A stretch of 45,400 nucleotides of DNA. It comes from a virus. The notes below the pieces were generated by a model. That model was not told the DNA's origin. It worked only from the letters and a program-made list of their open reading frames with translations, and searched no databases. How positions within the stretch are numbered: position 1 is the stretch's first letter; each line of letters begins with the position of its first letter. Below are positions 291-45,063 of the stretch, in pieces. The position numbers and the translations under genes are program-made. The DNA is taken from IMG/VR virus record IMGVR_UViG_3300018432_000020, positions 1-45,400 of that record. One strand, written 5' to 3'.

Positions 291-302
291 GTCTGACACC
301 CT
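291..302 (+). repeat. Dispersed TCTGACACCC site 1
   Basis: GTCTGACACCCT lies across the -10/start region of the leftward promoter at 298-326. It is one of 13 plus-oriented copies. A bound protein here would block that promoter. Confidence 0.6.
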
Positions 303-326
303 ACATGACGCCAGGTGTGGTGTCTA
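298..326 (-). promoter_or_regulatory. Cassette promoter P1
   Basis: Reading leftward: -35 TAGACA (321-326), 17-bp spacer containing CTGGCGTCAT, -10 TAGGGT (298-303). The second TGRCG box starts 12 bp after the first, as in the sister promoters. The TAG of the -35 is also the stop codon of the upstream gene (324-542). The leader of about 30 nt contains ACCGACCGAGA before the Shine-Dalgarno, a stretch shared with other cassette leaders. Confidence 0.75.
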
Positions 327-542
327 GCCTTCGGGTCGGATGGTGATGGAGAACGTCCGGGCCGGCGTGCCGTGCGGGTCCGCCGGGGACCACCACTCGG
401 CCTGCAGCACGGCCGCGTCGCCGTCCATGCCGCGCTCGGCCGCCGGGTGCGGCTCCAGCTCGAGACTGCCGCCCGACTCCAGCAGCGCGCCGGACATCCG
501 GATGGTCATCAGGCGGGTGAGCTCGCGCAGGATCTCGTCCAT
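324..542 (-). CDS. Small hypothetical protein (72 aa)
   Basis: ATG at 542 with an AGAGGA ribosome site about eight bases upstream. The product begins MDEILRELTRLM, a short amphipathic helix, followed by an acidic strand-rich half (SGGSLELEPH, then AEWWSPADPHG). Its stop codon TAG is embedded in the -35 hexamer of P1, so gene end and next promoter are fused. It is the third and last gene of the operon started by P2. No homolog recognised. Confidence 0.75.
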   Translation of the reverse strand: MDEILRELTRLMTIRMSGALLESGGSLELEPHPAAERGMDGDAAVLQAEWWSPADPHGTPARTFSITIRPEG

Positions 543-579
543 GATCTGTCCTCTTCCTGTCAGGTCGGGCCGAAAGTGG

Positions 580-1107
580 TCAGGCCGCGCGGTAACGCTC
601 GGCCGCGGGAGTGCAGTCGACGTGCAGCCGGTGCACCATCGCGGCGAGGGACTGTGTGGGGTGGTCGCCGCGCAGGCAGTCCAGGATGTGCGTGCTCGCC
701 AGCTCGCCCCGGCCCTTGACGATCCAGTTGGGCTCGAGGCCACGCCGGGTCATCTCGCGGGTGGCGCACGCCTGGGAGGTGTGCAGGTCGCCGAAGGTCC
801 CGCCCCAGAGCCGTGCGCCGTCCAGGTCGGACATGAGCCGCACCATCCGGCCCTGCCACCCGGCGTCGAACCGGTCCAGCACGTCTACCGTGCCGACCAG
901 GTCGGCCGGCAGGGGCTGTCCGGCCAGCGCGTACCGCTTACGGGTGGCGTCTGACACCCGGGTGGCCCGGACCAGCAGCAGCCCGCCGTCGGGCAGCAGT
1001 ACCCAGCGCTCGCCGGCGCCGGGGCCCAGCGACCACACGTACCCGCCTTCCAGCGCGGTCCCGGGGTCGGCCCATCCGGGCGCCCAGTCCTTCACGCGGC
1101 GGCTCAC
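580..1107 (-). CDS. Hypothetical protein (175 aa)
   Basis: Starts at GTG 1107, overlapping the stop of the upstream gene (GTGA), which indicates translational coupling; a second in-frame GTG lies at 1095. The product begins VSRRVKDWAPGW, is rich in Trp, Arg and Gly, and has a central strand region (ERWVLLPDGGLLLVRAT) and a C-terminal helical part with CATREMTRRG and HILDCLRGDH. One dispersed TCTGACACCCG site (949-960) lies in the coding sequence, encoding RVSDAT. No family recognised. Confidence 0.75.
   Translation of the reverse strand: MSRRVKDWAPGWADPGTALEGGYVWSLGPGAGERWVLLPDGGLLLVRATRVSDATRKRYALAGQPLPADLVGTVDVLDRFDAGWQGRMVRLMSDLDGARLWGGTFGDLHTSQACATREMTRRGLEPNWIVKGRGELASTHILDCLRGDHPTQSLAAMVHRLHVDCTPAAERYRAA
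949..960 (+). repeat. Dispersed TCTGACACCC site 2
   Basis: GTCTGACACCCG inside the 580-1107 gene. The flanks CGGGTG (941-946) and CACCCG (955-960) are perfectly complementary around an 8-nt loop. Confidence 0.65.
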
Positions 1108-1520
1108 CGGTTCCCGCCGATCCAGGCGGCGACGCGGCCACGCCAGCCGGCCGCGACGGGGACCCAGCGCACGGCGGGCTCGGCGCCGCGCACCCGCTGG
1201 AGCAGTTCCTGCGCGGGGATGAGGAAGTCGGAGTGCATGCGGGTCCAGGTGAACCCGGCGGGGGACAGGTCCAGCCGCTTGCGGCACGAGTCCTCCCACG
1301 GCGGCACCGTGCTCGGGTCGATCAGCACGCCCCAGACCGCGCCCTCGCTGTCCTCGGCTTCGTCCCACTCGCCACAGCACGGGCACCGGCGGATGACGAT
1401 CAGGCCGTAGGGGGCGAGCTTGCCGTTGAACACCGCGGAGGCGTCGGCGGCCTCGCACTCGTCTTCGGTGTTGGGCATCCAGCCGGTGTCTTCCACGATC
1501 CGGATTCCGTAGTCGGTCAT
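1104..1520 (-). CDS. Hypothetical protein with CPCC zinc-knuckle-like motif (138 aa)
   Basis: ATG at 1520, preceded by AGGGAG at good spacing, about 40 nt downstream of the P2 -10. It is the first gene of a three-gene operon (1104-1520, 580-1107, 324-542) joined by a GTGA overlap at its end. The N-terminal third is acidic (NTEDECEAADAS). The middle carries IVIRRCPCCGEWDE, where the Cys pair could bind metal. The C-terminal third is Trp/Arg-rich. A longer reading upstream of 1520 would run through the promoter and was not used. Function unknown. Confidence 0.78.
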   Translation of the reverse strand: MTDYGIRIVEDTGWMPNTEDECEAADASAVFNGKLAPYGLIVIRRCPCCGEWDEAEDSEGAVWGVLIDPSTVPPWEDSCRKRLDLSPAGFTWTRMHSDFLIPAQELLQRVRGAEPAVRWVPVAAGWRGRVAAWIGGNR

Positions 1521-1547
1521 CTGCTGCTCCCTGGTCGGGTGGTTCGT

Positions 1548-1559
1548 TCTGACAACTGA
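1548..1559 (+). repeat. Dispersed TCTGACA site 3
   Basis: TTCTGACAACTG, immediately followed by a second TGACA. Read leftward it gives two TGTCAG units 8 bp apart at the start region of P2. Confidence 0.55.
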
Positions 1560-1560
1560 C

Positions 1561-1589
1561 ACACTACCTGACGTCAGGTTCGGCGTCAG
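1561..1589 (-). promoter_or_regulatory. Cassette promoter P2
   Basis: Leftward -35 CTGACG (1584-1589), 17-bp spacer with the palindrome TGACGTCA (1569-1576), -10 TAGTGT (1561-1566). The CTGACG boxes are repeated 12 bp apart. The -35 contains the TGA stop of the upstream gene 1586-1789. It drives 1104-1520 and the two genes behind it. Confidence 0.8.
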
Positions 1590-1789
1590 CAGTCGTTCGG
1601 GTTCCACATGCCCCGGACAGTGCACGCCCAGCCCGGATCGTCCTCCGCGAGCCAATCACCCTGTCCCGTAAGGGAAGCGCCCATGCTGTCCACATAGGAC
1701 GGTGCAGTGTGGACGTTCTCCGGCTGGGGCATGGCCAGCCCGAACAGCGCGACGAAGAACAGGCCGGCCGCGGTGATGCGGTAGAGCAT
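1586..1789 (-). CDS. Small secreted or membrane-anchored protein (67 aa)
   Basis: ATG at 1789 with GGGAG six bases upstream. The N-terminus is a signal peptide or membrane anchor: MLYRITAAGLFFVALFGLA, then a polar acidic tail containing AEDDPGW and a final CTVRGMWNPNDC with two Cys that could pair outside the cell. It is the second gene behind P3. The stop lies inside the -35 of P2. No family recognised; the signal-like N-terminus is seen directly and secretion is inferred. Confidence 0.75.
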   Translation of the reverse strand: MLYRITAAGLFFVALFGLAMPQPENVHTAPSYVDSMGASLTGQGDWLAEDDPGWACTVRGMWNPNDC

Positions 1790-1887
1790 GGGGACTCCCG
1801 TGCTGGTCGGGGTGTGCGTCCGTGCGCACTCCACCCGCGCACCGCCGGGGACAGGGCCGGTGCGGGATGGGCAGCGCGCGGCTGCGG

Positions 1888-2391
1888 TCAGGGGCGGTCG
1901 GCGACGTGGCGGCGGGTGCCGGAGTAGCCGGACCCGCCGCTTTCGCTCTCGGTCCAGACGTGGCCGATGGCCTCGCCAGTCCCGGCCGCGTGCACGTCGC
2001 CGTCGTGGCGATTCGGGCGCGTGCACGTCCACGGGTACGGCACGTCGTCGCTCACGAGGCGGGCGCCGCAGATCCCAACGCCTTCCGGGTTCGTGGTGTC
2101 GGGCGCGTCCACGATGAACGCGGGCGGCTTCTGACACCCGAACTGCGGTGCCGAGGCCGTGGTCACGTCCACCCAGGTCCGCCGACCCACCGGGGTGCCG
2201 TTGATCCAGCGGTGACTGCCGGGCAGGCTCACGTCCAGCACGCCGGCGGGCGGCCGGTCCACGCTGGTGACGGTGACGAACCTGCCGCGCGGGGTGACCT
2301 GGACCATCCCTTCGGCCAGGTCGGCGATGGCGACGCGGTAGACCATGGTGTTGTGGATCTCTCGCGGGTCCTGGTCGGGGCTGGTGATCAC
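1888..2391 (-). CDS. Hypothetical protein (167 aa)
   Basis: GTG at 2391 follows AAGGAG at seven bases and lies about 30 nt below the P3 -10, favouring this start over an internal ATG (MVYRVAIADL). The first half is strand-rich (MVQVTPRGRFVTVTS, WINGTPVGRRTWVDV), like a small beta barrel. The second half has four Cys (FGCQK, GICGA, WTCTRPNRHDGDVH) with nearby His, a possible metal site. A dispersed site (2129-2140) encodes the FGCQK segment. Function unknown. Confidence 0.78.
   Translation of the reverse strand: MITSPDQDPREIHNTMVYRVAIADLAEGMVQVTPRGRFVTVTSVDRPPAGVLDVSLPGSHRWINGTPVGRRTWVDVTTASAPQFGCQKPPAFIVDAPDTTNPEGVGICGARLVSDDVPYPWTCTRPNRHDGDVHAAGTGEAIGHVWTESESGGSGYSGTRRHVADRP
2129..2140 (+). 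repeat. Dispersed TCTGACACCC site 4
   Basis: TTCTGACACCCG within the 1888-2391 gene, with CGGG/CCCG arms around a 12-nt loop. The reading frame differs from sites 2 and 5. Confidence 0.6.
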
Positions 2392-2421
2392 GGTCGGCTC
2401 CTTGCTGGTCGGCGTAGTGAC

Positions 2422-2450
2422 ACACTATCTGACGTCAAGCGTGGTGTCAA
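2422..2450 (-). promoter_or_regulatory. Cassette promoter P3
   Basis: Leftward -35 TTGACA (2445-2450), 17-bp spacer ending in TTGACGTCAGA, -10 TAGTGT (2422-2427). TTGACA and TTGACG boxes are 12 bp apart. The upstream gene's TGA stop (2447-2449) sits inside the -35. This copy has the perfect -35 consensus and is a good reference for the family. Confidence 0.85.
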
Positions 2451-2896: not shown

Positions 2897-2930
2897 CGCT
2901 GGCTCCTCGTGGTCGGGTCGGTCGGGGTGG

Positions 2931-2962: not shown

Positions 2963-2969
2963 CGGTGGG

Positions 2970-3273: not shown

Positions 3274-3302
3274 ATCGTATCTGACGTCAAGCGTGGCGTC
3301 AA
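3274..3302 (-). promoter_or_regulatory. Cassette promoter P4
   Basis: Leftward -35 TTGACG (3297-3302), 17-bp spacer ending in TTGACGTCAGA, -10 TACGAT (3274-3279). Two TTGACG boxes lie exactly 12 bp apart. The leader contains ACACCGACCGA before the Shine-Dalgarno, as in P1 and the promoter at 44178-44206. Confidence 0.85.
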
Positions 3303-3330: not shown

Positions 3331-3369
3331 GCCCGGGCGGGGCGGTGGGGTTCTGACACCCGCCCGGGC
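3331..3369 (+). repeat. Hairpin with TTCTGACA (site 7)
   Basis: Arms GCCCGGGCGGG (3331-3341) and CCCGCCCGGGC (3359-3369) are perfect and enclose 17 nt that include TTCTGACA (motif 3351-3362). It is intergenic between the end of gene 3378-3920 and P4, where a transcription boundary is expected. Confidence 0.8.
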
Positions 3370-3377: not shown

Positions 3378-3920
3378 TCAGGACTGGCGGGCCTGCTCCA
3401 GCTCGAACGCCGGGTCGATGAACACGCGCGTCCAGAGGCGGTAGGAGAGCAGGGACGCCAGGTCTTCGCCAGCCAGCTCGCACCAGCGCTCGATGCCCTG
3501 CATCCACACCACGTCGCCGGCGGCCAGCTCGTCACTGCGCACACCCATCTCGACGCGGACGCTCAGCTCCCGGCCCCGCTTGACCGGGACCCCGCCGACC
3601 ACCGCCGAGCGCCCGCCCGTCGGCTCCGTCCAGCGGCGCATGTGCCGCACGTTGGCCGCGAACACCGACGGCTCCCGGCCCACGAGCGTCTGGTCACCGC
3701 GGGGGGTGACGAAGACCGCGCCGAGCGGGACCTGGTCCTCGCGGAGCGTGCGCACCGGGCGCAGGGTGCTCGCCTCGTTCTGACACCCTGCCGGGCGGAT
3801 CTCCGTCGCGTCGTCCGTCGTGCAGGCGCGCACCTCGCTCAGCGCCAGCGCGTCGTCCAGGCTGTGCGTGCCCGGCGTCGCGAGCTCTCCGGTGCTGGTG
3901 TGGAGGGTGTACTCGGCCAT
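3378..3920 (-). CDS. Hypothetical protein (180 aa)
   Basis: ATG at 3920 with GAGGAG at about six bases, 40 nt below P5. The product begins MAEYTLHTSTGELATPGT and contains a beta-rich middle (QVPLGAVFVTPRGDQTLVG, SVRVEMGVRSDELAAGDVVWM) and an acidic helical C-terminus (LAGEDLASLLSYRLW). The middle could be a small barrel-like domain. It is the only gene of the P5 transcript. Function unknown. Confidence 0.78.
   Translation of the reverse strand: MAEYTLHTSTGELATPGTHSLDDALALSEVRACTTDDATEIRPAGCQNEASTLRPVRTLREDQVPLGAVFVTPRGDQTLVGREPSVFAANVRHMRRWTEPTGGRSAVVGGVPVKRGRELSVRVEMGVRSDELAAGDVVWMQGIERWCELAGEDLASLLSYRLWTRVFIDPAFELEQARQS
3761..3791 (+). repeat. Hairpin with TTCTGACA (site 8)
   Basis: GCAGGGTG (3761-3768) pairs perfectly with CACCCTGC (3784-3791) across a 15-nt loop ending in TTCTGA. 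The motif is TTCTGACACCCT (3778-3789), inside the 3378-3920 gene. Where the 3' arm departs from CCCG the 5' arm changes to match. Confidence 0.75.
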
Positions 3921-3960
3921 CGTCTGCTCCTCGGTGCTGGCGTCCCTTGCTGATAGGTAC

Positions 3961-3989
3961 ACACTATCTGACGCCACGCCTGACGTCAA
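3961..3989 (-). promoter_or_regulatory. Cassette promoter P5
   Basis: Leftward -35 TTGACG (3984-3989), 17-bp spacer containing GTGGCGTCAGA, -10 TAGTGT (3961-3966). The box order is swapped relative to P3: the palindrome TGACGTCA overlaps the -35 and the degenerate TGGCG box sits in the spacer. It drives 3378-3920. Confidence 0.8.
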
Positions 3990-4000: not shown

Positions 4001-4074
4001 TCACCTGTTCGGGTGAACCACACCCGGTCACCGCGCACACGCACGGCTACGCCGGCGACCACCCGAACAGGTGA
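4001..4074. repeat. 15-bp perfect inverted repeat
   Basis: TCACCTGTTCGGGTG (4001-4015) is repeated in inverse as CACCCGAACAGGTGA (4060-4074), separated by 44 bp. Neither arm is part of a likely gene. Plausible roles are terminase or partition-protein binding, or a recombinase core pair. Confidence 0.85.
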
Positions 4075-4166
4075 ATCACCCAAGGTGACGGACACCGAGC
4101 GTGATGGTGACCACTCTAAGCGCCAATCCCCCTGTTTTCCCAGCTCAGAGGGGGTGTGCACGTATG

Positions 4167-4208
4167 GTGACCGTCTCCCCCTACGCTGAGTGAGCACCCC
4201 CCGGTCAC
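4167..4208. repeat. GTGACCG inverted repeat
   Basis: GTGACCG (4167-4173) and CGGTCAC (4202-4208) flank a C-rich stretch. The same GGTGACC core occurs near 4105 and in inverse near 4025, making a cluster of four related 7-mers in under 200 bp. Confidence 0.55.
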
Positions 4209-4714
4209 GGAGCGTGAGCGCGGCGCCTACTCACACACCTCCGAGGACCCGATGACACACTGCATCTCGGGTTGCCGACAGAGAGAGAGAATGTCAGCGT
4301 AGCGACCCCTGCCCGTGGCAAATTTCCTGATTTCGGGTGGGTATTTCCTCGGAATCGGACTGTATCAGCGGAGTCCCAGCCCGTCGGCTTTCCTCGTCGG
4401 CGCTGCTCTGCTCGCACGACGGTGGACCGCTCGCTGGCGCTCGGAGGGACCTGCGGTGCTGACTGCCCGCCCCCCATCCCCCCGGTCGCGGCCTCGCCCC
4501 ACCCGCGCGTGCTTCGGTCGGGGGCTCATCCGGCTCGCACCGCTGTAGGCCAGGATCGCGGGCCCCTGCGACGGGGGGTGACGCCGGGGGTGGGCCGGCT
4601 CCCGGGCAGACCCTCCGGGTGGGATAGCGGCGAGGGTAGCGGCCCGCCGGCGATCACCGCCCTACGATCGCGTCGACGCGCTGCCCAGCCGGCGTGTCGG
4701 AGAGGACGAACACC

Positions 4715-7155: not shown

Positions 7156-7395
7156 ATGCGATCCCAGCCCGCATCCCAGACCTTCCCGCGCGTCCGCGAC
7201 CGCGGCTCCCTCCTGATCCCGGCCGTCGTCGCCGTCCCCCTCACCGCGGGATACGCCGCGGGCGGGATCGCCGGCGCCGCCGCGGTCGGCGTGCTGTCCC
7301 TCGCCGGGATGGCCGCGGTCGCACACCGCCGGCTCACCGACGACTCCCGACCGGCCGCCGAGCCGGTGCGCGAGCTCATCCCGGCGTCCCGATGA
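7156..7395 (+). CDS. Small membrane protein of the translocase cassette (79 aa)
   Basis: Leaderless ATG at 7156, six bases below the -10. A basic N-terminus (MRSQPASQTFPRVRDRG) is followed by one long or two short hydrophobic segments (LLIPAVVAVPLTAGYAAGG, AGAAAVGVLSLAGMAAVA) and a short polar tail. Its stop overlaps the ATG of the SpdB-like gene. In actinomycete plasmids, small spread-type membrane proteins sit beside traB-type genes, so a transfer or spread role is an inference from context. Confidence 0.75.
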   Translation: MRSQPASQTFPRVRDRGSLLIPAVVAVPLTAGYAAGGIAGAAAVGVLSLAGMAAVAHRRLTDDSRPAAEPVRELIPASR

Positions 7396-8207
7396 CCGAC
7401 TGGCGCGAGGTGGCCCGCCGGGTCGTCTTTTGGACCGCGGTGCTGACCGGGGTCCTGATGCTGCTCGGGATGGTCCTGTCCTACGCCGGGATGCGCTCGT
7501 TCTTCACCGCGTGCGGCTTCCCGGGCTGGGCCGCGCTGCTCGCCCCGCTGGTCGTGGACCTGCTCGCCGCGGTGGGATACGTCGGGCTCATCGTGCTGCC
7601 GCGCAAGGCGTATCCCGCGGCCGTGGTCGCGCTGGGAGTCGTGGGATCCGCGGCCGCCCAGGGCTACCACCTGTCCCACGGCGGCGTCTCCGCGGACGTG
7701 ACCGACCCGTGGGTGATCGCGGCCGCCGGCGCGGCGCCGATGGTGTCCGCCGGCCTGGCCGCCCACCTGCTCAAGCTGATTCTGGACCGGGTGCTGCCGG
7801 CCGACTTCCTCACCGCGCTGCGCGGCGAGGAGCTGCCAGCGGCCGTCGTGCCGGCAGCGGCGCCCGTCGGCCGGTACGAGGACGGAGGCCAGGCCCGACT
7901 GGACACCGCGTTGACCCGGTTCGGCCTGCCGCCGGCGCCGGCCTGGACCCCGCCGGCCGTCCTGCCTCCGCGGGTGCCCGCCATCCCGGCCGAGCTGCCC
8001 CCGACCGCGCCGCGGATCACCGCGCAGGTCAGCGAGCCGAAGCCGAAGCCGAAGCGCGCCCAGCGCCCGCCGGCCGGCGGCTCCCAGCTGCCCGGCCCGT
8101 GCGAGGGCTGCAAGCACCACGTCGGGGACGTGTCCAAGTCGGCTCGCTACCGCTGCCAGGGCGGCACGTGCGGGACCTGCAAGAAGCTGGAGGAGATCGA
8201 TGTCTGA
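7392..8207 (+). CDS. DUF2637/SpdB-like membrane protein with C-terminal Cys cluster (271 aa)
   Basis: Four hydrophobic segments occupy residues about 10-135 (VVFWTAVLTGVLMLLGMVL, AALLAPLVVDLLAAVGYVG, a Val/Ala-rich segment, AAAGAAPMVSAGLAAHLL). A long Pro-rich linker follows, with a basic KPKPKRAQRP and a C-terminal CEGCKHH...CQGGTCGTCKK cluster that could bind zinc. This resembles DUF2637 proteins and the SpdB spread proteins of Streptomyces plasmids, which act in intramycelial plasmid spread with TraB. It overlaps the genes on both sides. The Cys-rich tail could contact DNA or the translocase. Family assignment from topology and context. Confidence 0.7.
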   Translation: MTDWREVARRVVFWTAVLTGVLMLLGMVLSYAGMRSFFTACGFPGWAALLAPLVVDLLAAVGYVGLIVLPRKAYPAAVVALGVVGSAAAQGYHLSHGGVSADVTDPWVIAAAGAAPMVSAGLAAHLLKLILDRVLPADFLTALRGEELPAAVVPAAAPVGRYEDGGQARLDTALTRFGLPPAPAWTPPAVLPPRVPAIPAELPPTAPRITAQVSEPKPKPKRAQRPPAGGSQLPGPCEGCKHHVGDVSKSARYRCQGGTCGTCKKLEEIDV

Positions 8208-8385
8208 GCTGGATCTTCCGGCGATCCGCCGAGCCGCGGCAGCCGTGCTGGAGCGGACGCTGGCCGACTTTGCTCGGATCATGCTGCCGGCCATGGCCGA
8301 CGAGATCGAGCGACTGCAGGCCGAGTTGGAGCGCGCCCAGGCCGAGGCGATTCGACTCCGGGCCGAGGCGGCATCCCGTGAGTGA
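8200..8385 (+). CDS. Short coiled-coil protein (61 aa)
   Basis: ATG at 8200 lies inside the end of the SpdB-like gene with GGAGGA just upstream. The product is almost entirely helical with a clear heptad stretch (MADEIERLQAELERAQAEA). Its stop overlaps the translocase start. It may be an adaptor between the membrane protein and the translocase. No family recognised. Confidence 0.8.
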   Translation: MSELDLPAIRRAAAAVLERTLADFARIMLPAMADEIERLQAELERAQAEAIRLRAEAASRE

Positions 8386-10408
8386 CGACCGGATCCCACG
8401 CCGCGGCGCCACCCGCGCATCCCACGACACTCCTGGGAAGGCCACCGCTCGTCGGGCGTTCCCCATCGGGATGCCGTGGATCCTCGCCGGGATCGTGCTC
8501 GGCGGCGGGCAGGTATCCCACCTGACCTGGGGCCAGGGATCGGTATCCCAGATCGTCGCCCCGCTGGGATTCTCCCTCGCTGGGATCGGCGTGGCCCGGG
8601 TCGCCTGGGCCTACTCCAAGGCCCGTCCCATGCACCAGCGCCGGCACGTGGGAATCACGCTGATCCTCGCCGGGCTCGCGCTGTCCCTGCTGACCAGCAC
8701 CGGGCTGGCCGATCCCGTTGTCGCCCCGGTCGTGGGATTCGGCGCCGCGGTGCTGGCGATCACCTGGAACGTCCGCCGGGCCGAGGTGGTGCGCGGCGAC
8801 GGCGACGAGAAGCCGAAGCAGGAGACCGGCTGGGACGAGCTGCTGGGCCTGCCTGGCAGCCAGGTCAGCGGCATCCGCCGGGCCGGGCCGAAGATCGCCG
8901 CGCGCCTGCAGCTCAAGGGCCAGCCGATCAGGGAGGCGCAGGGCATCGTGGACAAGGTGGCCGCCTACCTGCACGTCCCGGCCACCGCGGTCCGGATCGT
9001 GCCCGACGCCGACGACGCCTCCGCCGGCGAGATCACGGTGATGCTGGAGGACCAGCTGCGCGCCGGGGTGCCCTGGCCCGGCCCCGCCCACCTGGGCGGA
9101 TCCCCCTCCGATCCCCTGCCGATCGCGCTGTACGAGGACGGCGAGGTACTCGCCCCGGTGCTGGACCACGGGCACCTGCTCGAGATGGGCATGACCGGTG
9201 CCGGCAAGACGGAGACGGCGAAGGTCAAGGCCGCCGAGCGGGCCACCCGGCGCGAGTGCGTGCAGTGGTGGTGCGACACGGTGAAGGGTGACCAGTCCGG
9301 CCGGATGCTGCGCGACGCCTTCGACTGGTACGTCGGCGCCGGGGACACCGCCGGGGCGAAGGCGCAGCTGGCCGCGCTCCGGGCGCTCATCCCGTACCGG
9401 GCCGGGATCATGGGCGACCTGGGACTGGAGAAGTGGGAACCGGGATGCGGCCTCGCGCTGCTGGTCTGGCACTGCGAGGAGGCCCCCGCGGTCATCCCGT
9501 CCTCGGAGACGTTCGTCCGGCTGTCCCAGCAGGCCCGGTCCGTGGGAATCGTGCTGGAGGTGTCGATGCAGCGCGCGACCCACGACAACATCCCGACCAG
9601 CGCGCGGGCCAACCTGGGATCCAGCTTCTGCTTCGGCGTGCGGGATTCCGAGGACGCGGGATTCGCCCTGTCCGAGTCGACGGTGGCGGACGGCGCCCGG
9701 CCGGAGGTGTGGCGGGACAAGCGGCCCGGCTACGTCTACGTCGAGGCGCCCGGCCTGGAGGAGAACCGCTGGTCGATGCCGGCCCGTGGCTTCAAGGCGA
9801 GCACCGCCCAGCTCGAGAAGGCGATCGCCGCCGGCGCCGCGTACCGCGAGCCGGGCCTCACCCCGGGCGAGCTGCAGGTCATCGCGGACCTGGCCGGCGT
9901 GGGCGAGACGTACGCCCGGCGCAACAACACGACCAGGCCGGCACCCGCCGCCCTGACCAGCGACGACGACGAGGATGGCCCCGTGTTCGACCCTGACGAC
10001 GACCCGGACGGAGAGTTCACCATCCCCCCGCAGCCCGACTCCCTGGCAGACGCCATCGACCCGCGCGCCGAGCTCGAGCCGCTGCCGGCCGGCACGGACC
10101 AGCCGCTGCCCGACGAGGAGCCGGAGCCGACCGGTCCGCAGCTCACCCCGGCCGAGCGGCGGGAGGTGTTCGTCCGGATGCTCGCGGACTTCGTGGGTGA
10201 CGCGCGGTACGTGGACGTGCGGATGGCCGAGCTCGTGGACCGCTGGCACGAGCTGGTCGGGCAGCCGGCCGCGAACCAGCGCCCGTTCCTGCACCAGCGT
10301 CTCGGGGAGCTGATCGAGCTGCGCCACGTGGAGCGCCACGAGGACCCGCCCGCGGGCCGGTACCGCCTGCTCGGGAGCCTGCGCGAGCTGGTGCCCGCGC
10401 CGGCCTGA
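8378..10408 (+). CDS. FtsK/SpoIIIE/TraB-type DNA translocase (676 aa)
   Basis: GTG at 8378, overlapping the previous gene. About three hydrophobic segments lie between residues 28 and 130, then a linker domain and a RecA-like motor. Walker A is GMTGAGKT (residues 271-278). Walker B is LALLVWHCEEAP (359-370), with Glu-Glu where Asp-Glu is usual. A final region (from about residue 590, LTPAERREVFVRML to GRYRLLGS) looks like a winged helix, the place of the DNA-reading gamma domain in FtsK and TraB. Such enzymes pump double-stranded DNA through a membrane pore; TraB does this in Streptomyces conjugation. A phage role could be plasmid-like spread or segregation of the prophage. Confidence 0.85.
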   Translation: MSDDRIPRRGATRASHDTPGKATARRAFPIGMPWILAGIVLGGGQVSHLTWGQGSVSQIVAPLGFSLAGIGVARVAWAYSKARPMHQRRHVGITLILAGLALSLLTSTGLADPVVAPVVGFGAAVLAITWNVRRAEVVRGDGDEKPKQETGWDELLGLPGSQVSGIRRAGPKIAARLQLKGQPIREAQGIVDKVAAYLHVPATAVRIVPDADDASAGEITVMLEDQLRAGVPWPGPAHLGGSPSDPLPIALYEDGEVLAPVLDHGHLLEMGMTGAGKTETAKVKAAERATRRECVQWWCDTVKGDQSGRMLRDAFDWYVGAGDTAGAKAQLAALRALIPYRAGIMGDLGLEKWEPGCGLALLVWHCEEAPAVIPSSETFVRLSQQARSVGIVLEVSMQRATHDNIPTSARANLGSSFCFGVRDSEDAGFALSESTVADGARPEVWRDKRPGYVYVEAPGLEENRWSMPARGFKASTAQLEKAIAAGAAYREPGLTPGELQVIADLAGVGETYARRNNTTRPAPAALTSDDDEDGPVFDPDDDPDGEFTIPPQPDSLADAIDPRAELEPLPAGTDQPLPDEEPEPTGPQLTPAERREVFVRMLADFVGDARYVDVRMAELVDRWHELVGQPAANQRPFLHQRLGELIELRHVERHEDPPAGRYRLLGSLRELVPAPA

Positions 10409-10451
10409 CACTTCCGCCGCCGCCCGCGTGTCCCTGCCTAGGGGATCCGCG

Positions 10452-10493
10452 GTGTTAGGCCCCTTAACTTCGGACATTTCGGGCGTCTAACAC
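10452..10493. repeat. GTGTTAG/CTAACAC inverted repeat
   Basis: GTGTTAG (10452-10458) and CTAACAC (10487-10493) flank an AT-richer stretch just upstream of the TGACAC array. It may be an operator or part of a terminator after the translocase gene. Confidence 0.55.
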
Positions 10494-10498
10494 GTCCC

Positions 10499-10540
10499 TT
10501 GACACTGCCTGACACCCTGCCTGACACGGCACCTGACACC
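10499..10540 (+). promoter_or_regulatory. Tandem TGACAC operator array with -35-like TTGACA
   Basis: TTGACAC starts at 10499 and CTGACAC at 10509, 10521 and 10533, the last three exactly 12 bp apart. Ribosome site AAGGAG and the ATG at 10561 follow. No convincing -10 lies 17 bp from the TTGACA, so this is either a weak or activator-dependent late promoter or a pure operator. The 12-bp period equals that of the paired boxes in the cassette promoters. Confidence 0.7.
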
Positions 10541-32500: not shown

Positions 32501-32952
32501 ACACGGTGTTTATGAATCCGGGCCTGCCGAGCACGTCGATCACCGCCCAGACGCTCGGCCTGGCCGCCGACACCCCCGGAGGGGTCGGCGGCGGCATCGG
32601 GCAGAACCTCGTGGGCAGCGTCAACCCGATCGTGCAAGCGCCGTTCGAGCTCGCCACCGGCCGCCGGGTGTTCGGCGGCGGGGACATCCCCGTCGGTCCG
32701 CTGCCGGAGTACGTGGCCGGCAAGACGCCGGTCACCAACCTCGCCTTCACCGGCTCCGGGAAGGACGACGCGGACACCCGGTTCGGCTCGTTCCTGACCG
32801 GCCTGGGCCTGTCGGAGAACACGCCCAGCCGCCAGCGGGGTGCCCTGCTAGACGAGATCAAGAAGATCGGCGAGCAGCGCAAGAAGGCCGGCTACGTGCC
32901 GGCGAAGACGGGCCGCGGCCGGCCGCAACGTTCTGACAGCCGGGGAGGCTGA
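29524..32952 (+). CDS. Large internal virion/ejection protein (1142 aa)
   Basis: GTG at 29524. A long helical, Ala-rich protein with several amphipathic regions (AARAVAGFGLDVAVDPLSYV, AAKAKTAGARWLNPSLKLAG). Residues from about 700 contain LPSPAFHIRNSFGDVFLGYL, and about 910-935 contain FHFDYHDVTPTEQAVFARLF with PFYKFQRF. That pair is often found in very large internal proteins of tailed phages. It is the likely counterpart of T7 gp16 or P22 gp16, forming the DNA conduit across the envelope. No catalytic transglycosylase motif is evident. About 300 bp near its 3' end use unusual AT-rich codons. Confidence 0.75.
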   Translation: MASRGLEGFTPEMRRLLERAGIDLSGGMAAGGASGAVWGRDLAPSRQEAATAPWYVLERQTGTAPEGWLTDPGNAAVAQANRSKKPLDPTVQKLLDQVNKARAIEQQQGRPDTQQKPSFLLRALDYIGRPGAAVMGGITETARSAIREDAKDGPETGPAALREIFGGLGLRAGRSTPGDVGRGMQRGITATERYHGSKLLDEAGVDNRAARAVAGFGLDVAVDPLSYVTFGAAKTVSTGGRAAAAARQTALRKGADEAVAAGARMPADELVKHLGATKSRRPITDQAIDTAVTDVGRAAATAARSSLTNDLVRVGMPAAKAKTAGARWLNPSLKLAGPEATERAAWLGRLRADPAAARPYLDESAASIAGEASAATRAQLTALADTHAAAEARRMLSVNVAGFRVAQAPVPAPLSRAAARAGQFPAAQRALSAFDKTFNTGSRFDRGLTAMKARTAGLAERRIDAVRTSLVNGFRGVNADQRKALQEAIVAGPAGGWGTGMAKLADGTDAAEIVRETYDHVGRYVDWTGTGAGLVRVEDLNRFLPKRYKFDKLTPGDAGGDTPADMLAGLVRRNPHLRTEDPAQHLYALHIAVEKAVARDQLARGVASFGIPVSAAGRDILGPDGKMVAATSKAAQELREKHGWSEIVTKGRDKELGASYGKHLEGMIFDPATKHGITRLLAVADDVTKRGEILRLYDRSLSSLKKVLTLPSPAFHIRNSFGDVFLGYLDDVSGPRGLRSYEQASRTMLAIRRLAQPGSKLRETLDAAVDPVTGQATDPIQALAAAVKAGRREPGPGARVMSTPKSWPDAPGGYLSAEQLWAAYNHAGLKRGFVSADLDEGLRPGVLPGRPVGRASDALQGLAEQREDYFRLAHMIDRVKRSKAATFSEAAEEAAHYVRKFHFDYHDVTPTEQAVFARLFPFYKFQRFAAPLMVQMFFAKPGKIVNAQRFLYSAADANGYERDDLGLPTADEVLPEYFRDSAMVPLYDSIRGNTVFMNPGLPSTSITAQTLGLAADTPGGVGGGIGQNLVGSVNPIVQAPFELATGRRVFGGGDIPVGPLPEYVAGKTPVTNLAFTGSGKDDADTRFGSFLTGLGLSENTPSRQRGALLDEIKKIGEQRKKAGYVPAKTGRGRPQRSDSRGG
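32931..32942 (+). repeat. Dispersed TCTGACA site 9
   Basis: TTCTGACAGCCG straddles the last codons of the 1142-residue protein, with CCGGC/GCCGG arms around a 15-nt loop. It is the only copy in the late gene block, at its 3' end before the endolysin. Confidence 0.55.
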
Positions 32953-35392: not shown

Positions 35393-35511
35393 CGCCGCAC
35401 CTCCTGGGTGACGGCGCGGTTGATCATCCAGCTACCGACGTAGCCGGCGATCACGCCGAGCACGAACGAGCCGCCGAAGACCACCAGAGCGACGACCCAC
35501 CAGCTCACCAT
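35380..35511 (-). CDS. Small single-pass membrane protein (43 aa)
   Basis: ATG at 35511. One hydrophobic segment (WWVVALVVFGGSFVLGVIAG) is followed by a polar, basic end. It overlaps the exonuclease start and the HTH gene's stop. Its role in a recombination and regulation operon is unknown; a superinfection-exclusion-type function is possible but unsupported. Confidence 0.72.
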   Translation of the reverse strand: MVSWWVVALVVFGGSFVLGVIAGYVGSWMINRAVTQEVRRWSS

Positions 35512-35882
35512 CGGTACCCGTTGACGTCCTTGTGCGCGAAGCCGTGACCGACTTCCTGCACGCAGGTCCGCCGGCCTGGTGCGGTCTCCGCGCAGCATCC
35601 CGTCGCCGCGGACACGCCGTGCCGAGCCGGCAGCAACGTGGCCAGCGACACGCCCAGCCCGTCCGCGATGGCCACCAGGTTGTGGAAGCCCGGTGCGTAC
35701 GCGGCGGTCTCCACCCGGTTGACCGTCTGTCGGTCCACTCCCGACTCTTGGGCCAGCCTCTCCTGCGACCAGCCGCGCTGCTTGCGAGCCGCCCGGACCG
35801 CGGCACCCAGTGCCAGCCGATCGTCCTGCTCGATCCGGGACAGCTCGGAGAACCGGCTGCCCTTCTGCCTCGGGGTGCTCAC
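35505..35882 (-). CDS. Cro/CI-type HTH regulator (125 aa)
   Basis: GTG at 35882 overlaps the stop of the ERF gene. Residues about 25-80 form an HTH_3 domain: LGAAVRAARKQRGWSQERLA, then GVDRQTVNRVETAAYAP as recognition helix, then NLVAIADGLGVSLATLL. The C-terminal 45 residues carry three Cys (GCCAETAPGRRTC) and end KDVNGYRW, with no peptidase or dimerisation domain of a classical CI. It is one of two candidates for the protein that binds the TGAC promoter boxes. Confidence 0.82.
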   Translation of the reverse strand: MSTPRQKGSRFSELSRIEQDDRLALGAAVRAARKQRGWSQERLAQESGVDRQTVNRVETAAYAPGFHNLVAIADGLGVSLATLLPARHGVSAATGCCAETAPGRRTCVQEVGHGFAHKDVNGYRW

Positions 35883-37098: not shown

Positions 37099-37105
37099 GT
37101 CCAAC

Positions 37106-37134
37106 ACCATATCTGATGTTGCCAACGGCGTCAA
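37106..37134 (-). promoter_or_regulatory. Leftward half of divergent leaderless promoter
   Basis: -35 TTGACG (37129-37134), 17-bp spacer ending ACATCAGA, -10 TATGGT (37106-37111); the ATG at 37098 is seven bases away. The CATCAGA next to the -10 keeps the GTCAGA end of the cassette promoters, but the second TGAC box is degenerate. Confidence 0.8.
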
Positions 37135-38880: not shown

Positions 38881-39383
38881 ACTGCCAGGTCAGCGGCACC
38901 GCCCGCGTCGTCGCCGACCCGGAGATCCGCACCACCCCGAACGGCAAGCTGCTGTCCGAAGTCCGGCTCGCGATCTCCAACAGCACCCGCAGGCAGGACG
39001 GCAGCTACAAGGACAGCCCGGCCATCTGGGCGACGGCCACCCTCTGGGGGCAGATGGCCGAGAACGCCGCGGAGGTGCTGCGCCGCGGCGACGAGGTGAT
39101 TTTCGCCGGCCAGCTCGAGAAGGAGGAGTTCGACAAGAAGGACGGCACCAAGGGCGAGAAGCTGGTGATCAAGTTCGCGGAGATCGCGCCCAGCATCCGC
39201 CGCGGCGCCGTCGTCACCCGCGAGCAGGCCAACCCGCCGGCCGCGCCCCGTTCTGACAACCGGACCGCCCAGCGCCCGCCGGCCGCCCGTCCACAGGCTT
39301 CTGCACCGCCTGTGGACGACCCGTGGGCCGCGCCGGCGCCGGCCTCGTTTGTCGGTGCGGGGGCCGATGAGCCGCCGTTCTAG
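38877..39383 (+). CDS. ssb: Single-stranded DNA-binding protein (168 aa)
   Basis: ATG at 38877. The OB-fold start MNCQVSGTARVVADPEIRTT, then EVRLAISNSTRRQ, IWATATLWGQMAENAAEVLR and GDEVIFAGQLEKEE are typical of bacterial and phage SSB. A Pro/Ala-rich linker leads to the conserved acidic tail ADEPPF, which recruits helicase, polymerase and recombination partners. A dispersed TTCTGACA site lies in the linker DNA. Length is normal. Confidence 0.94.
   Translation: MNCQVSGTARVVADPEIRTTPNGKLLSEVRLAISNSTRRQDGSYKDSPAIWATATLWGQMAENAAEVLRRGDEVIFAGQLEKEEFDKKDGTKGEKLVIKFAEIAPSIRRGAVVTREQANPPAAPRSDNRTAQRPPAARPQASAPPVDDPWAAPAPASFVGAGADEPPF
39251..39262 (+). repeat. Dispersed TCTGACA site 10
   Basis: TTCTGACAACCG in the ssb linker, encoding RSDNR. 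Only a GTT-CTGAC-AAC core is symmetric here; longer arms are absent. Confidence 0.5.
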
Positions 39384-39534: not shown

Positions 39535-40374
39535 ATGAACGAATCCGACCAGCCCGTCCAGATCACCAGCGAGATCGGCCCGTGGGCCATGGTCCCCATC
39601 TGGGTGCTGGACAAGAAGCTGAGCGGCGGCGAGCTCGCCACCTACGTGGCCCTGCGCTCGTTCGCAGACCGCACCAACAACGCCCGGCCGTACACCCGCA
39701 CCATCGCGCTGCGGGCCAACGTCTCGCAGCGCACCGCCGAGCGCGCGATCGACCGGCTGCGCGAGCTCGGCATGATCATCACCCAACGGAAGCACCGGCC
39801 CGACGGCTCGATCGCCGGCCTCTCGTTCCACCTCGTGGACCGCGACCCCGGCTCGTACGGAGCTCGCGCCGTGTCGGTACCCCCCGTCACCGGTGTCGGT
39901 ACCCCTCCCGTCACGGGTGACGGAACCCTCCCGTCACGGGTGACGGAGCAGGAACACACCAGTGAACACACCAGTAAGAACACACCAGGAAAGCAAGAGC
40001 CCGCGCGTGCGAGCGATGTCGGTACCCCCCTCGCTGTCGCCCCTTCGGTGCGTCCTTCCGGCTCGACCCCAACGGAAGACGAACTACGCGCCGACGAGGA
40101 GGTGCGACGAGAGTCGGGTAGCCGCCGCACCAGCATGTTGGTGGCCCAGGTGCTCGAGGCGAACCGCGGCCGGCTGTCGATCGCGCCGGACTCGCTCGGC
40201 CGGCTGCTCCGGACCGCGATGGACAACAGCGTGCCGCCGTGGGTGATCCGGCGCGCGGTGACCGCGGTACTGGAGGCCGGCGACGACCTGGCGCCGTGGA
40301 CGCTGCAGAAGGCGGTGGCGAAGGTGACGAAGCCGGCGCCGCGCTCCGGCTGGTCGTACGTGGAGGGCCAGTGA
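39535..40374 (+). CDS. Winged-helix replication initiator (lambda O-like organisation, 279 aa)
   Basis: ATG at 39535. Residues about 10-110 form a helix-turn-helix domain: WVLDKKLSGGELATYVALR, RTIALRANVSQRTAERAIDRL and LGMIITQRKHRPDG. A Thr/Ser/Pro-rich, flexible middle encoded by repeats follows, and then a C-terminal helical domain (RLLRTAMDNSVPPWVIRRA) of the sort that contacts a helicase or loader. The DnaB/RepA-like ATPase is encoded just downstream. As in lambda O, the repeats inside the gene probably mark the origin. Confidence 0.82.
   Translation: MNESDQPVQITSEIGPWAMVPIWVLDKKLSGGELATYVALRSFADRTNNARPYTRTIALRANVSQRTAERAIDRLRELGMIITQRKHRPDGSIAGLSFHLVDRDPGSYGARAVSVPPVTGVGTPPVTGDGTLPSRVTEQEHTSEHTSKNTPGKQEPARASDVGTPLAVAPSVRPSGSTPTEDELRADEEVRRESGSRRTSMLVAQVLEANRGRLSIAPDSLGRLLRTAMDNSVPPWVIRRAVTAVLEAGDDLAPWTLQKAVAKVTKPAPRSGWSYVEGQ
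39871..39989. other. Iteron cluster, probable origin of replication
   Basis: Two repeat families lie in the initiator gene. The first has three units of about 21-24 bp (from 39871, 39892 and 39916) containing GTCGGTACCCC or GACGGAACCC with CCGTCAC, plus a partial fourth at 39939; another GTCGGTACCCCCC is at 40018. The second, GAACACACCAGT, occurs at 39952-39963, 39964-39975 and, with one change, 39978-39989. An AT-richer stretch follows. The arrangement matches iterons plus unwinding region of lambda-like origins. Confidence 0.7.
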
Positions 40375-42072: not shown

Positions 42073-42641
42073 GCCGGGTGCCGGTGTCGCAGGGCCCGCA
42101 CCACGACGGCCGCCCGCGGCTGCTGGTGACCGGCTCGCGGCTTCTGACACGCGAGCGGCACGCGGACGCCGTCCAGCAGGGGCTGGTGTTCTGCGGGAAG
42201 CTGCTCGGCCGGGAGGCCGTGCTCGTGCACGGCGACTGCGCGCCGCGCGTCTACCGGGACCGGCCGGGCTCGCCCCGGCACGACGGGCTCGATCGCCTCG
42301 CCCGGGATCAGTGGTTGCGCTGGGGCCTGGATCAGCTCGCGTACCCGGCGGACTGGGCCGGGCAGGGTGTCGCGGCCGGGCACATCCGCAACGAGGCGAT
42401 GGTGCGCGACCTCGGCATGGGCCCGGCGATCTGCATGGCCTGGCCGCACCCGGACCCCGCCGTGCGTTCGGGCGGCACCTGGGACTGCGTGCGGCGCGCG
42501 CTGGCCGCGAGCGTCACGGTGCTGTCGGGCTGGACGTGCACGCCGATCCTGTCCGCACCGGACCCGGCCGACCTGCCCCCGCGGCCCCCGCCGGGGATGC
42601 TCCCCCACCACGCGAACCCCCGAAGGGAGGTTGCACAGTGA
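42069..42641 (+). CDS. SLOG/DUF2493-like Rossmann protein (190 aa)
   Basis: GTG at 42069. RLLVTGSRLLTRE, then AVLVHGDCAPRV and later GHIRNEAMVRD follow the pattern of YspA/DUF2493 proteins of the SLOG superfamily, which bind nucleotides or nucleotide-like signals. A role as nucleotide sensor in replication or defence is an inference. A dispersed site lies at 42142-42153. The tail is Pro-rich. Confidence 0.75.
   Translation: MSRVPVSQGPHHDGRPRLLVTGSRLLTRERHADAVQQGLVFCGKLLGREAVLVHGDCAPRVYRDRPGSPRHDGLDRLARDQWLRWGLDQLAYPADWAGQGVAAGHIRNEAMVRDLGMGPAICMAWPHPDPAVRSGGTWDCVRRALAASVTVLSGWTCTPILSAPDPADLPPRPPPGMLPHHANPRREVAQ
42133..42156 (+). repeat. Hairpin with TTCTGACA (site 11)
   Basis: GCTCGCG (42133-42139) pairs perfectly with CGCGAGC (42150-42156) around the loop GCTTCTGACA. 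The 3' arm is not CCCG but CGCG, and the 5' arm has changed to match. Located in the SLOG gene. Confidence 0.7.
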
Positions 42642-43044: not shown

Positions 43045-43174
43045 GCTGCACCTCAATGTCCCGCCGAACGGCGACCTGCTCCCGGCGCTTCATGGTGCGC
43101 GCGTCGTAGCCGGAGAGGCAGCACCCGCACCGCGCCCACGTGCCGGGGTGTACCCGGCCCAGCATCCGAGCCAT
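43031..43174 (-). CDS. Small basic protein with Cys knuckle (47 aa)
   Basis: ATG at 43174; the frame runs to TAA at 43031 and overlaps the HNH start. ARCGCCLSGYDA provides a CxCC knuckle, and the rest is strongly basic (TMKRREQVAVRRDIEVQR). It could bind nucleic acid. No clear ribosome site is seen, so the call rests on codon bias and overlap. Confidence 0.5.
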   Translation of the reverse strand: MARMLGRVHPGTWARCGCCLSGYDARTMKRREQVAVRRDIEVQRAGR

Positions 43175-43255
43175 GGCCTGATCATGCCGCAGGCCCGGCC
43201 GCCGCGGGTGCGACGTGCCGGGCCTGCGTGGAGGCGGGTCAGTACCAGCCGGAGC

Positions 43256-43378
43256 TCATCCGCCCACCACCTTCCAGATGATGAACGCGACGGGCAGGGC
43301 GTGGAACGCGGCGAGGAACACCGCGCCGGACAGGCGGCTGCCGAGCGGCACCCGGGTGGCCAGGGTCGGGGCGCTCAT
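43256..43378 (-). CDS. Small membrane protein (40 aa)
   Basis: ATG at 43378 overlaps the previous stop (ATGA). One hydrophobic segment (LSGAVFLAAFHALPVAFIIW) follows a short basic N-terminus. It is coupled to the upstream gene. Role unknown. Confidence 0.68.
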   Translation of the reverse strand: MSAPTLATRVPLGSRLSGAVFLAAFHALPVAFIIWKVVGG

Positions 43379-43764
43379 GCCGGGGTCCGGCGCAGCAGGA
43401 CGGCCGGGCCGCGGGCCCGGATGCCGTAGACGTCCTCGATGGAGAGCGCCCGGCGCCGGTCGTTCAGCTCGCCCACTTCGTCCACGCCGAGCTCGAGCAG
43501 GTCGTACGCGGCCATGCCGGTCAGGTCGTCCACGCCGGAGAGCACCCAGAGGCTGGGGCCATCCTCGTCGTCGTCCAGGATCCAGGCGGACGCCTCGATC
43601 ACGTCGCCCAGCGCGTCGGCCAGCTCGCCGTGGGCGTCGGCCAGCGCCCCGACCAAGGAGACCGCCGTCTTGCCGCTGACGCGGCGGGCGGTGATCTTGC
43701 GGATGTCGGTCAGGATCTCGGTCACGGTGCGGGGCACGGCGGTCTCCTCGGTCGGGGTGGTCAT
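43375..43764 (-). CDS. Acidic hypothetical protein (129 aa)
   Basis: ATG at 43764 overlaps the stop of the first gene in the operon. The product (MTTPTEETAVPRTVTEILTD start) is helical with acidic loops (ASAWILDDDEDGPSLWVLSG, LLELGVDEVGELND). The charge pattern resembles DNA-mimic or inhibitor proteins, but no family is recognised. Confidence 0.75.
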   Translation of the reverse strand: MTTPTEETAVPRTVTEILTDIRKITARRVSGKTAVSLVGALADAHGELADALGDVIEASAWILDDDEDGPSLWVLSGVDDLTGMAAYDLLELGVDEVGELNDRRRALSIEDVYGIRARGPAVLLRRTPA

Positions 43765-44147
43765 CGGGTGGCGTGCGCGATGAGCTGCGCGCCGAGCTGC
43801 AGGGCCTGTGCCCTGCTGACGTAGGCCGACGCGCGGCCGTCCAGACCGATGAACGCCAGCCCTCGCGCATCGCCGTGGATCTCCGTACCGACGTGCGCGC
43901 TGACGTCGCCCTCGTCCTGCAGCAGCACGGTCGCGGTGGGGATGTCCTCCGGCCGGCGGTCGTCCGGCAAGCTGGCCAGGGCCTCGCCCAGCTCGCGGTA
44001 GACGGTGCGGGCCTGGTCGACGGTGTACGTGGAGCCGCTGGTCCAGAGCTTCGCCACGCCGTCTTGACCGGCAATCTGGATCTCCGGCCCGTCATTGCCG
44101 TTGAAGACGTCGACCGCCTCGCCGCGGTACTGCTCGGTGCTGGTCAT
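43761..44147 (-). CDS. Hypothetical protein, first gene of right cassette operon (128 aa)
   Basis: ATG at 44147 with GAGAGG about nine bases upstream and about 30 nt below the promoter at 44178-44206. The product (MTSTEQYRGEAVDVFNG start) has strand pairs (PEIQIAGQDGVAKLW, RGLAFIGLDGRASAYVS) and helices, a small alpha/beta fold. An upstream in-frame extension to 44231 would run through the promoter and was not used. Function unknown. Confidence 0.78.
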   Translation of the reverse strand: MTSTEQYRGEAVDVFNGNDGPEIQIAGQDGVAKLWTSGSTYTVDQARTVYRELGEALASLPDDRRPEDIPTATVLLQDEGDVSAHVGTEIHGDARGLAFIGLDGRASAYVSRAQALQLGAQLIAHATR

Positions 44148-44177
44148 CGGGGTGTCCCTCTCGGTCGGTGTAGGTAC

Positions 44178-44206
44178 ACCATATCTGGCGTCATGTGCGG
44201 TGTCAA
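44178..44206 (-). promoter_or_regulatory. Right-hand cassette promoter
   Basis: Leftward -35 TTGACA (44201-44206), 17-bp spacer with ATGACGCCAGA, -10 TATGGT (44178-44183). TGAC boxes are 12 bp apart. The leader repeats TACACCGACCGAGA. It is the same design as P1-P5, 40 kb away in the window, and drives the 44147 operon. Confidence 0.85.
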
Positions 44207-44222
44207 GCGGTGAGTCTCCCGG

Positions 44223-44234
44223 ATCTGACACCCG
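44223..44234 (+). repeat. Dispersed TCTGACACCC site 12
   Basis: ATCTGACACCCG between the right-hand cassette promoter and the GTG at 44254. A TACCCT -10-like hexamer (44242-44247) follows, seven bases before the GTG, hinting at a leaderless transcript controlled by this site. Confidence 0.6.
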
Positions 44235-44253
44235 AACGGGTTACCCTGCCCGC

Positions 44254-45063
44254 GTGAGCACTCCCCGTGACCTCGGATGGGGCGACCCGTACGCGCTGAC
44301 CAGCGCGGACATGGTGCTGGTCAGCGTCGCCCGGCTCATCCCCGGTCACTCCGAACGGCTCGTGCGGGTCCGCAACGCCGACGTGGGGGAGCTGCACTGC
44401 GAGCTCGTGCGCCGGCTGCACGCCCGGGGCTGGCCCGGCCCGAACGTCAACACCTGGGGCTACAACGGCCGGCTCAAGCGGTGGGCGCAGAGCGCCGGAC
44501 AGGTCTGGGGTCTCGCCCCGATGTCCAGCGTCAGCGACCACGCCTGGGGCACCGGGGTGGACTACTCCTCCGACCTCAACCCGTCGCAGCCCCGGCCGGC
44601 GAACCCCTGGGCGCACACGGACATGCCCAGGGACACCGCCGCGGTGGCGGCCTCCCTGGGCATGGACTGGGGCGGCACCTGGTCCGACCCGTACGACCCG
44701 ATGCACTTCGGCATGGCCGTCGGCCCGGCAGAGGTGCGGCGCCTGGCCGACCTCGTACGGGCCGCGCGCGCTGCCGGGCTGGACGACCTGGAGGAGATCG
44801 TGACCCTGTTCAAGACGGCCGCCGAGTTCGAGGCGAGCATGGCGCGGGCGGTGGCGACCGGCACGAACGCGGTGGCGTCGGCCTGGCTCCCGCGGATGGT
44901 CGCGGCCATGGAGGGCAGGCCCAACAGCTACTTCGCGGACGCGGCCCAGAACGACGACAACGAGGCGGCGCTGCTGACCGCGCAGCGGGAGACCAATGCG
45001 CTGCTGGCGGCGATGCTGGGGCCGGGCGGGGGTTCTGACACCCCGCCCGGCCCGGTCGGCTAG
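44254..45063 (+). CDS. Second M15-type peptidase (269 aa)
   Basis: GTG at 44254, probably leaderless. An M15/VanY zinc peptidase pattern occupies residues about 60-155: SDHAWGTGVDYSSD (His96, Asp103), the GMDWGGTW signature and YDPMHFG (His151). A long helical C-terminus may be a cell-wall-binding or oligomerisation segment. It has the same catalytic layout as 32954-33559 but different flanks, so one may be the lytic endolysin and the other a virion or host-wall remodelling enzyme. Confidence 0.86.
   Translation: MSTPRDLGWGDPYALTSADMVLVSVARLIPGHSERLVRVRNADVGELHCELVRRLHARGWPGPNVNTWGYNGRLKRWAQSAGQVWGLAPMSSVSDHAWGTGVDYSSDLNPSQPRPANPWAHTDMPRDTAAVAASLGMDWGGTWSDPYDPMHFGMAVGPAEVRRLADLVRAARAAGLDDLEEIVTLFKTAAEFEASMARAVATGTNAVASAWLPRMVAAMEGRPNSYFADAAQNDDNEAALLTAQRETNALLAAMLGPGGGSDTPPGPVG
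45019..45053 (+). repeat. Hairpin with TTCTGACA (site 13)
   Basis: GGGCCGGGCGGGG (45019-45031) pairs with CCCCGCCCGGCCC (45041-45053), 13 bp, around a 9-nt loop GTTCTGACA. It lies in the last codons of the peptidase gene, at a point where two convergent genes meet. Confidence 0.82.

Follow-up and report, generated by a model that had tools for sequence, protein, structure and literature searches.

Thirteen dispersed sites of one polarity, matching the clt repeats of TraB elements, in a phage genome that encodes a TraB-type DNA translocase

We analyzed a 45,400-nucleotide stretch of viral DNA (IMG/VR record IMGVR_UViG_3300018432_000020, positions 1 to 45,400, hereafter the window), in which 13 copies of a short asymmetric site lie dispersed on a single strand. 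The same genome encodes a homologue of TraB, the FtsK-like motor by which double-stranded DNA (dsDNA) passes from one Streptomyces hypha to another with no need of a type IV secretion system, and a cluster of direct repeats like those of the plasmid locus clt lies at the 3' end of its gene. The dispersed sites match the clt repeats of other TraB elements. We think it probable that they are single TraB recognition sequences (TRS), which would be read by the phage's own translocase and would orient it on the DNA.

The array and its orientation

Counted on both strands of the window, the heptamer TCTGACA occurs 13 times on the plus strand and never on the minus strand, as the sequence-only reading of this DNA had claimed. 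Both the excess and the strand bias hold against shuffled sequence: 100 dinucleotide shuffles gave a mean of 2.79 copies and a maximum of 9, both strands together. Under a second-order Markov model, TTCTGACA was observed nine times against 0.17 expected and TCTGACACCC nine times against 0.04, the reverse complement of each being absent. A matrix trained on the sites themselves scores them at 17.2-21.3 bits and the next-best match at 11.1 bits, a clear gap that is partly circular because the sites were chosen by TCTGACA.

The positions listed by that reading are correct, save that the site placed at 1548 begins at 1547 in the 12-mer register. All 13 sites are on the plus strand. At the left of the window, GTCTGACACCCT (291-302) and TTCTGACAACTG (1547-1558) each lie just 3' of the -10 box of a leftward promoter; GTCTGACACCCG (949-960), TTCTGACACCCG (2129-2140), CTCTGACACCCG (2549-2560) and TTCTGACACCCT (3778-3789) lie within leftward genes; and two further copies of TTCTGACACCCG (2943-2954 and 3351-3362) lie 3' of leftward genes. 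To the right, TTCTGACAGCCG (32931-32942) is at the end of a rightward gene, TTCTGACAACCG (39251-39262) is within the rightward ssb gene, TTCTGACACGCG (42142-42153) is within another rightward gene, ATCTGACACCCG (44223-44234) separates divergent genes, and TTCTGACACCCC (45033-45044) is at a convergent gene end.

Eight of the 13 sites are inside genes and five are intergenic. The coding copies are spread over three reading frames (a codon check covering seven of the eight) and use codons that are rare for their amino acids, with shares of 1.2% for TCT, 1.9% for TCA, 1.1% for CTT, 1.8% for ACA and 8.5% for TGT. Since the sites occupy three frames and are written in codons that make up about 1-9% of the usage of their amino acid, we conclude that selection acts on the DNA, which agrees with the earlier claim that protein sequence does not account for them. 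A repeated peptide, or another coding, compositional or chance origin, is very improbable: R-S-D or V-S-D/E is indeed encoded at several sites, but the three frames, the rare codons, the intergenic copies and the strict confinement to one strand all speak against it, and the shuffles, the Markov counts and the codon check already refute it.

Four of the coding sites are in leftward and four in rightward genes, so that, as had been noticed before, the array runs through both; because of this even split, its polarity belongs to the genome and not to transcription. Words that DNA-translocating motors read typically show polarity at the level of the genome. The record is classed as linear, yet an open reading frame (ORF) of about 230 codons runs over both of its ends (45400/1), which makes a complete, circularly permuted genome probable, and the DNA from 39.3 kb through 45.4/1 to 3.8 kb would then be a single stretch. 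On this circular map, 12 of the 13 sites fall between 39.3 and 3.8 kb, the remaining one being at 32.9 kb. Along their common orientation the spacing of the sites shrinks from 6320 to 427 bp (rho -0.95, with 0 of 20,000 permutations as extreme), and the density gradient ends beside a non-coding region of about 650 bp (4.0-4.7 kb), whose edge carries a perfect 15-bp inverted repeat (4001-4074). This non-coding DNA (4001-4700), with leftward genes on one side and rightward genes on the other, may be a site of recombination, partition or packaging.

The TraB homologue and the clt repeats

The plus-strand ORF at 8378-10408 is a full-length TraB homologue that includes the C-terminal DNA-binding region. 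It matches NCBIfam NF041214 over profile positions 3-633 of 639 (E 2.6e-116), with a score of 390 bits that is under the equivalog cut-off of 800, and by tblastn it matches Streptomyces plasmid TraB (E 3e-49), pWTY27 being among the matches; identity to the Streptomyces-type plasmid TraB proteins is only 31-34%. Searches of Pfam and of the phage database returned no match. The protein has predicted N-terminal membrane helices, a Walker A motif (GMTGAGKT) and a winged-helix-like C-terminal domain. Its structural model is of low confidence (pLDDT 50), and the best Foldseek matches are still FtsK motor structures (6t8g, E 8e-7). The C-terminal 94 residues are modeled better (pLDDT 80), in the winged-helix order H-E-H-H-E-E, and many winged helices are among the best Foldseek matches of this part, none of them with E below 0.001. 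The adjoining plus-strand gene (7392-8207) encodes a DUF2637-like membrane protein, a weak match below the cut-off (E 0.0085), and TraB plasmids show the same neighborhood.

In Streptomyces plasmids, TraB recognizes the 8-bp TRS repeats of clt and assembles there (PMC4170104); the pSVH1 consensus of these repeats is GACCCGGA (PMC5133688). The TraB of pWTY27 (there named TraA) footprints on a clt with four direct repeats of TGACACC (PMC3583192). The phage has a clt-like cluster of five TGACAC repeats on the traB strand at 10406-10540, the first overlapping the traB stop codon and four spaced by 10-12 bp. The sequence-only reading had described 3.8-32.9 kb as free of sites; that is so for TCTGACA, but the interval contains this CTGACAC repeat cluster (10405-10540). 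The orientation of the clt-like cluster, at 10.4 kb, is the same as that of the dispersed sites.

We compared the 3' flanks of traB in 20 elements, comprising this phage, plasmids and seven IMG/VR TraB loci. Repeats of the TGACACC type are present on the traB strand in the phage, in nine plasmids and in six of the seven IMG/VR loci, often in three to six copies and in some elements in only one; one plasmid and one IMG/VR locus have none, and pJV1 (of which a short flank was compared) and pSN22 carry CCGCACA repeats in their place. In several elements the first repeat supplies, with its TGA, the stop codon of traB, as it does in the phage (TGACACT). The clt of pRL1 holds an exact TTCTGACACCCG, pRL1 contains CTTCTGACACCCGC, and IMG/VR TraB loci hold GTTCTGACAC repeats. 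One contig, IMGVR_UViG_2636416124_000002, was found by a blind search of IMG/VR with GGGTTCTGACACCC and again by a TraB protein search, and its motif sits in clt just 3' of traB. In two IMG/VR TraB contigs, the DNA just 3' of traB has a long inverted repeat in clt, GATTCACACC...GGTGTGAATC, where relatives carry TTCTGACAC repeats.

A clt matrix was built with equal weight for each of 15 other TraB elements, which contribute 71 clt repeats in all, and the sites of the window were left unused. When both strands of the window are scanned with it, the nine top positions are nine of the 13 sites, led by the site at 2549, and the sites account for 11 of the top 15 positions; all 13 are within the top 23, the others including the window's own clt. 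At a threshold of at least 10 bits, there are 19 matches on the plus strand and one on the minus strand, against about six per strand in second-order Markov sequences. The depletion of the minus strand (1 against 6.0 expected), for which the evidence is modest, would be expected if reverse sites were harmful. Two further comparisons were set aside: that of recognition-helix residues with repeat sequence was only suggestive and is not used as evidence, and in other TraB plasmids TGACACC outside clt shows a weak strand bias (24:10) for which gene direction is a confounder.

The TraB/clt plasmids (pWTY27, pSVH1, pJV1, pIJ101, pCQ4 and pRL1) resemble the phage in that clt direct repeats lie at the 3' end of an FtsK-like translocase gene; pWTY27 has the core TGACACC in common with it, and pCQ4, too, combines traB with terminase, portal and capsid genes. 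They differ in that their strong sites are mostly in clt, whereas the phage adds 13 single sites of one orientation over about 16 kb, and in that the structural genes of the phage resemble those of Arthrobacter and Microbacterium phages. For the dispersed part of the system, a likeness is found in KOPS, the words of Escherichia coli FtsK, and SRS, those of Bacillus subtilis SpoIIIE. Both are short, asymmetric, over-represented and strand-polar, both serve an FtsK-family motor whose C-terminal winged helix reads DNA, and both become denser along their direction. The gamma module of FtsK recognizes KOPS, after which FtsK moves along the DNA towards the terminus (PMC7321959), and the reading of SRS by SpoIIIE is orientation-specific (PMC5869595). 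In contrast to the phage array, KOPS and SRS are chromosomal and octameric, and for the array we identified no dif site or recombinase partner.

Several observations weigh against reading the sites as words for TraB. Eleven of the 13 sites lie in 42.1-3.8 kb, a stretch rich in leftward early-type genes, and the density gradient may in part reflect gene layout. The 5' TTC common to the dispersed sites is missing from the phage's own clt repeats (CCTGACAC), and the sites at 1547 and 39251 match the clt matrix only moderately. No comparable array was seen in the other TraB replicons (pCQ4, pRL1, pWTY27, the Streptomyces canus, S. longwoodensis, Amycolatopsis and Nonomuraea plasmids and seven IMG/VR contigs), where strong sites are mainly in clt; the dispersed array appears to be new among TraB replicons. 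Searches by capsid, portal, helicase and an early gene for close relatives in which to compare its conservation turned up only capsid relatives of 48-58% identity, which do not have the array. Finally, the TraB model does not require the inverted repeats found around many of the sites.

Hairpins, promoters and repressor sites

These inverted repeats are well beyond chance. The stems that flank the sites sum to 85 bp, against 57 bp with permuted and 45 bp with random left flanks, and none of 5000 controls reached this value. Stems of six sites measure 14 bp (perfect, 2930-2963, with the 2943 site as its loop), 13 bp (perfect, 45019-45053, with the 45033 site as its loop), 11 bp (around the 3351 site), 8 bp (at 3778), 7 bp (42133-42156) and 6 bp (941-960, with the 949 site in the loop). 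Their sequence varies, with compensating changes such as CGCG, AGGG and GGGG arms. The sites might accordingly be regarded as stem-loops with a constant loop (TTCTGACA / UGUCAGAA), acting as terminators or as hairpins that a protein binds, either on one strand or in leftward transcripts, and the three strong hairpins at leftward gene ends, which may double as terminators, are in keeping with this, as are four intergenic hairpins with the same loop in another IMG/VR locus (IMGVR_UViG_3300013093_000001). We nevertheless hold this explanation to be improbable: at several sites the stem measures 3-4 bp and folding is no better than in shuffled sequence, the loops would differ between rightward and leftward transcripts, and the IMG/VR motif search gave no general link of the loop to longer stems, so that a generic family of TTCTGACA-loop hairpins was rejected (no excess of longer stems in 74 IMG/VR stretches with GGGTTCTGACACCC). 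The clt loci of TraB plasmids likewise contain inverted repeats (cf. PMC3583192).

Two hairpin observations stand on their own. The 10.9-kb stretch of IMGVR_UViG_3300013093_000001 has about 20 strong intergenic hairpins, before nearly every leftward gene, with loops of GTCGAA or TGTCAGAA in gene direction, followed by a purine-rich ribosome-binding site (RBS) and matching no Rfam family; they resemble the extended start-associated sequences of cluster K phages. In the window, a hairpin at 39288-39318, which follows the 39251 site in ssb at a distance of 30 bp, has an 11-bp stem and the loop TTCTGCACC, which is the site minus one A.

The sequence-only reading had taken the sites for a genome-wide, stoperator-like network of regulator-binding sites whose core TGACAC equals the promoter -35 box. 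That they form a protein-binding network is well supported; that they are stoperator-like is not, by their polarity, by their match to the operator or by the type of the window's XRE protein. The window has seven sigma-70-like promoters, all leftward and all with 17-bp spacers (291-330, 1560-1590, 2420-2450, 3274-3302, 3960-3989, 37100-37134 and 44170-44206, minus strand). Their -35 boxes are TTGACR, TAGACA or CTGACG, and the sites overlap none of the seven; TGACACC occurs in only two of the promoters, on the opposite strand. Most spacers end in TGACGYCAGA directly before the -10 box, with the palindrome TGACGTCA in four, and this element is probably the operator of a phage regulator. A search of IMG/VR and GTDB for the promoter element gave none in IMG/VR and seven chance-like matches in unrelated organisms.

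A repressor bound at the sites might still halt leftward transcription only, with the sites in rightward genes blocking antisense readthrough from leftward promoters while rightward polymerase passes. All seven promoters are leftward, and a leftward polymerase would meet all 13 sites in one polarity; two sites closely follow leftward -10 boxes; in the 1-4 kb block there is about one site per leftward gene; and the layout resembles that of the L5 sites, which are 13 bp, asymmetric and number 20-30 per genome (PMC9283540, PMC6550527). Even so, we consider such a role unlikely. L5-type stoperators are defined by an orientation that goes with transcription and that is needed for function (PMC9283540, PMC6550527), but rightward genes hold four of the eight coding sites, and the spacer element of the promoters is TGACGYCAGA and not the site. 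We saw no L5-type two-domain repressor (helix-turn-helix plus stoperator domain) and no integrase among the proteins scanned. The only clear repressor-like helix-turn-helix protein is an XRE protein of the HigA/434 type (35505-35882), and proteins of this type bind palindromes. Stoperators would also leave the identity with TraB clt repeats unexplained. It is because of this match, together with the TraB encoded by the phage, that we read the sites as words for TraB rather than as repressor sites.

Other dispersed phage repeats offer partial likenesses. Cluster A stoperators (L5, Bxb1, TipsytheTRex) are asymmetric sites of 12-14 bp dispersed between and within genes, with a TGTCA core, but they follow transcription and bind a monomeric two-domain repressor, whereas the polarity of the phage array follows the genome. 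The start-associated sequences of cluster K and the 17-bp repeats of cluster O are dispersed as well, the former mostly in one orientation and some with inverted repeats upstream (PMC3203893, PMC4351075). Unlike these repeats, the sites are neither tied to translation starts nor palindromic: cluster K sequences are placed a few bases upstream of start codons, and eight of our 13 sites are inside genes. Among the phages Shocker, DS1, Adat and Catfish, no comparable one-strand motif was found. Microbacterium phage Shocker has an RBS-like CCTTTACAGG repeat, and its CCTTTACAG, split 25 to 13 between the two strands and in several cases placed directly before start codons, appears to be an RBS-linked repeat.

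Genome setting and possible use of the array

The window encodes a portal, a terminase and a major capsid protein that is 39-46% identical to capsids of Arthrobacter, Microbacterium and Cellulosimicrobium phages, as well as an Erf/exonuclease pair and an O-like/DnaB-like replication module. Within the O-like initiator gene, at 39871-39946, three 23-bp tandem repeats (GTGACGGTACCCTCCCGTCACGG) are a candidate replication origin. An Rfam scan of the window gave no family.

For the sites, we infer from their likeness to clt repeats and to KOPS and SRS a mechanism in which the C-terminal winged-helix domain would let TraB assemble on the clt cluster downstream of traB, as happens in Streptomyces plasmids, and TraB would take its direction from the dispersed sites, all in clt orientation, as FtsK and SpoIIIE do from KOPS and SRS. 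If the polarity is KOPS-like, TraB would run rightwards through the array to the non-coding DNA at 4.0-4.7 kb and on to clt. A likely use would be to carry the circular phage DNA, as a phage-plasmid, from one hypha or hyphal compartment to another; clearing or monomerizing DNA before packaging is a possible alternative role.

In its broadest form, a tailed phage would have taken over the plasmid conjugation motor TraB, with its genome rebuilt around a polar, graded array of words for one-way pumping of DNA between cells or compartments, a viral counterpart of KOPS and FtsK; we put this at somewhat short of an even chance. The small phage genome, in which 13 natural sites of one polarity occur together with a clt cluster and the motor gene, is a compact system in which to test whether TraB words set direction. 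If the proposal is true, virions would not be the only means by which a phage spreads; a conjugation motor would be another.

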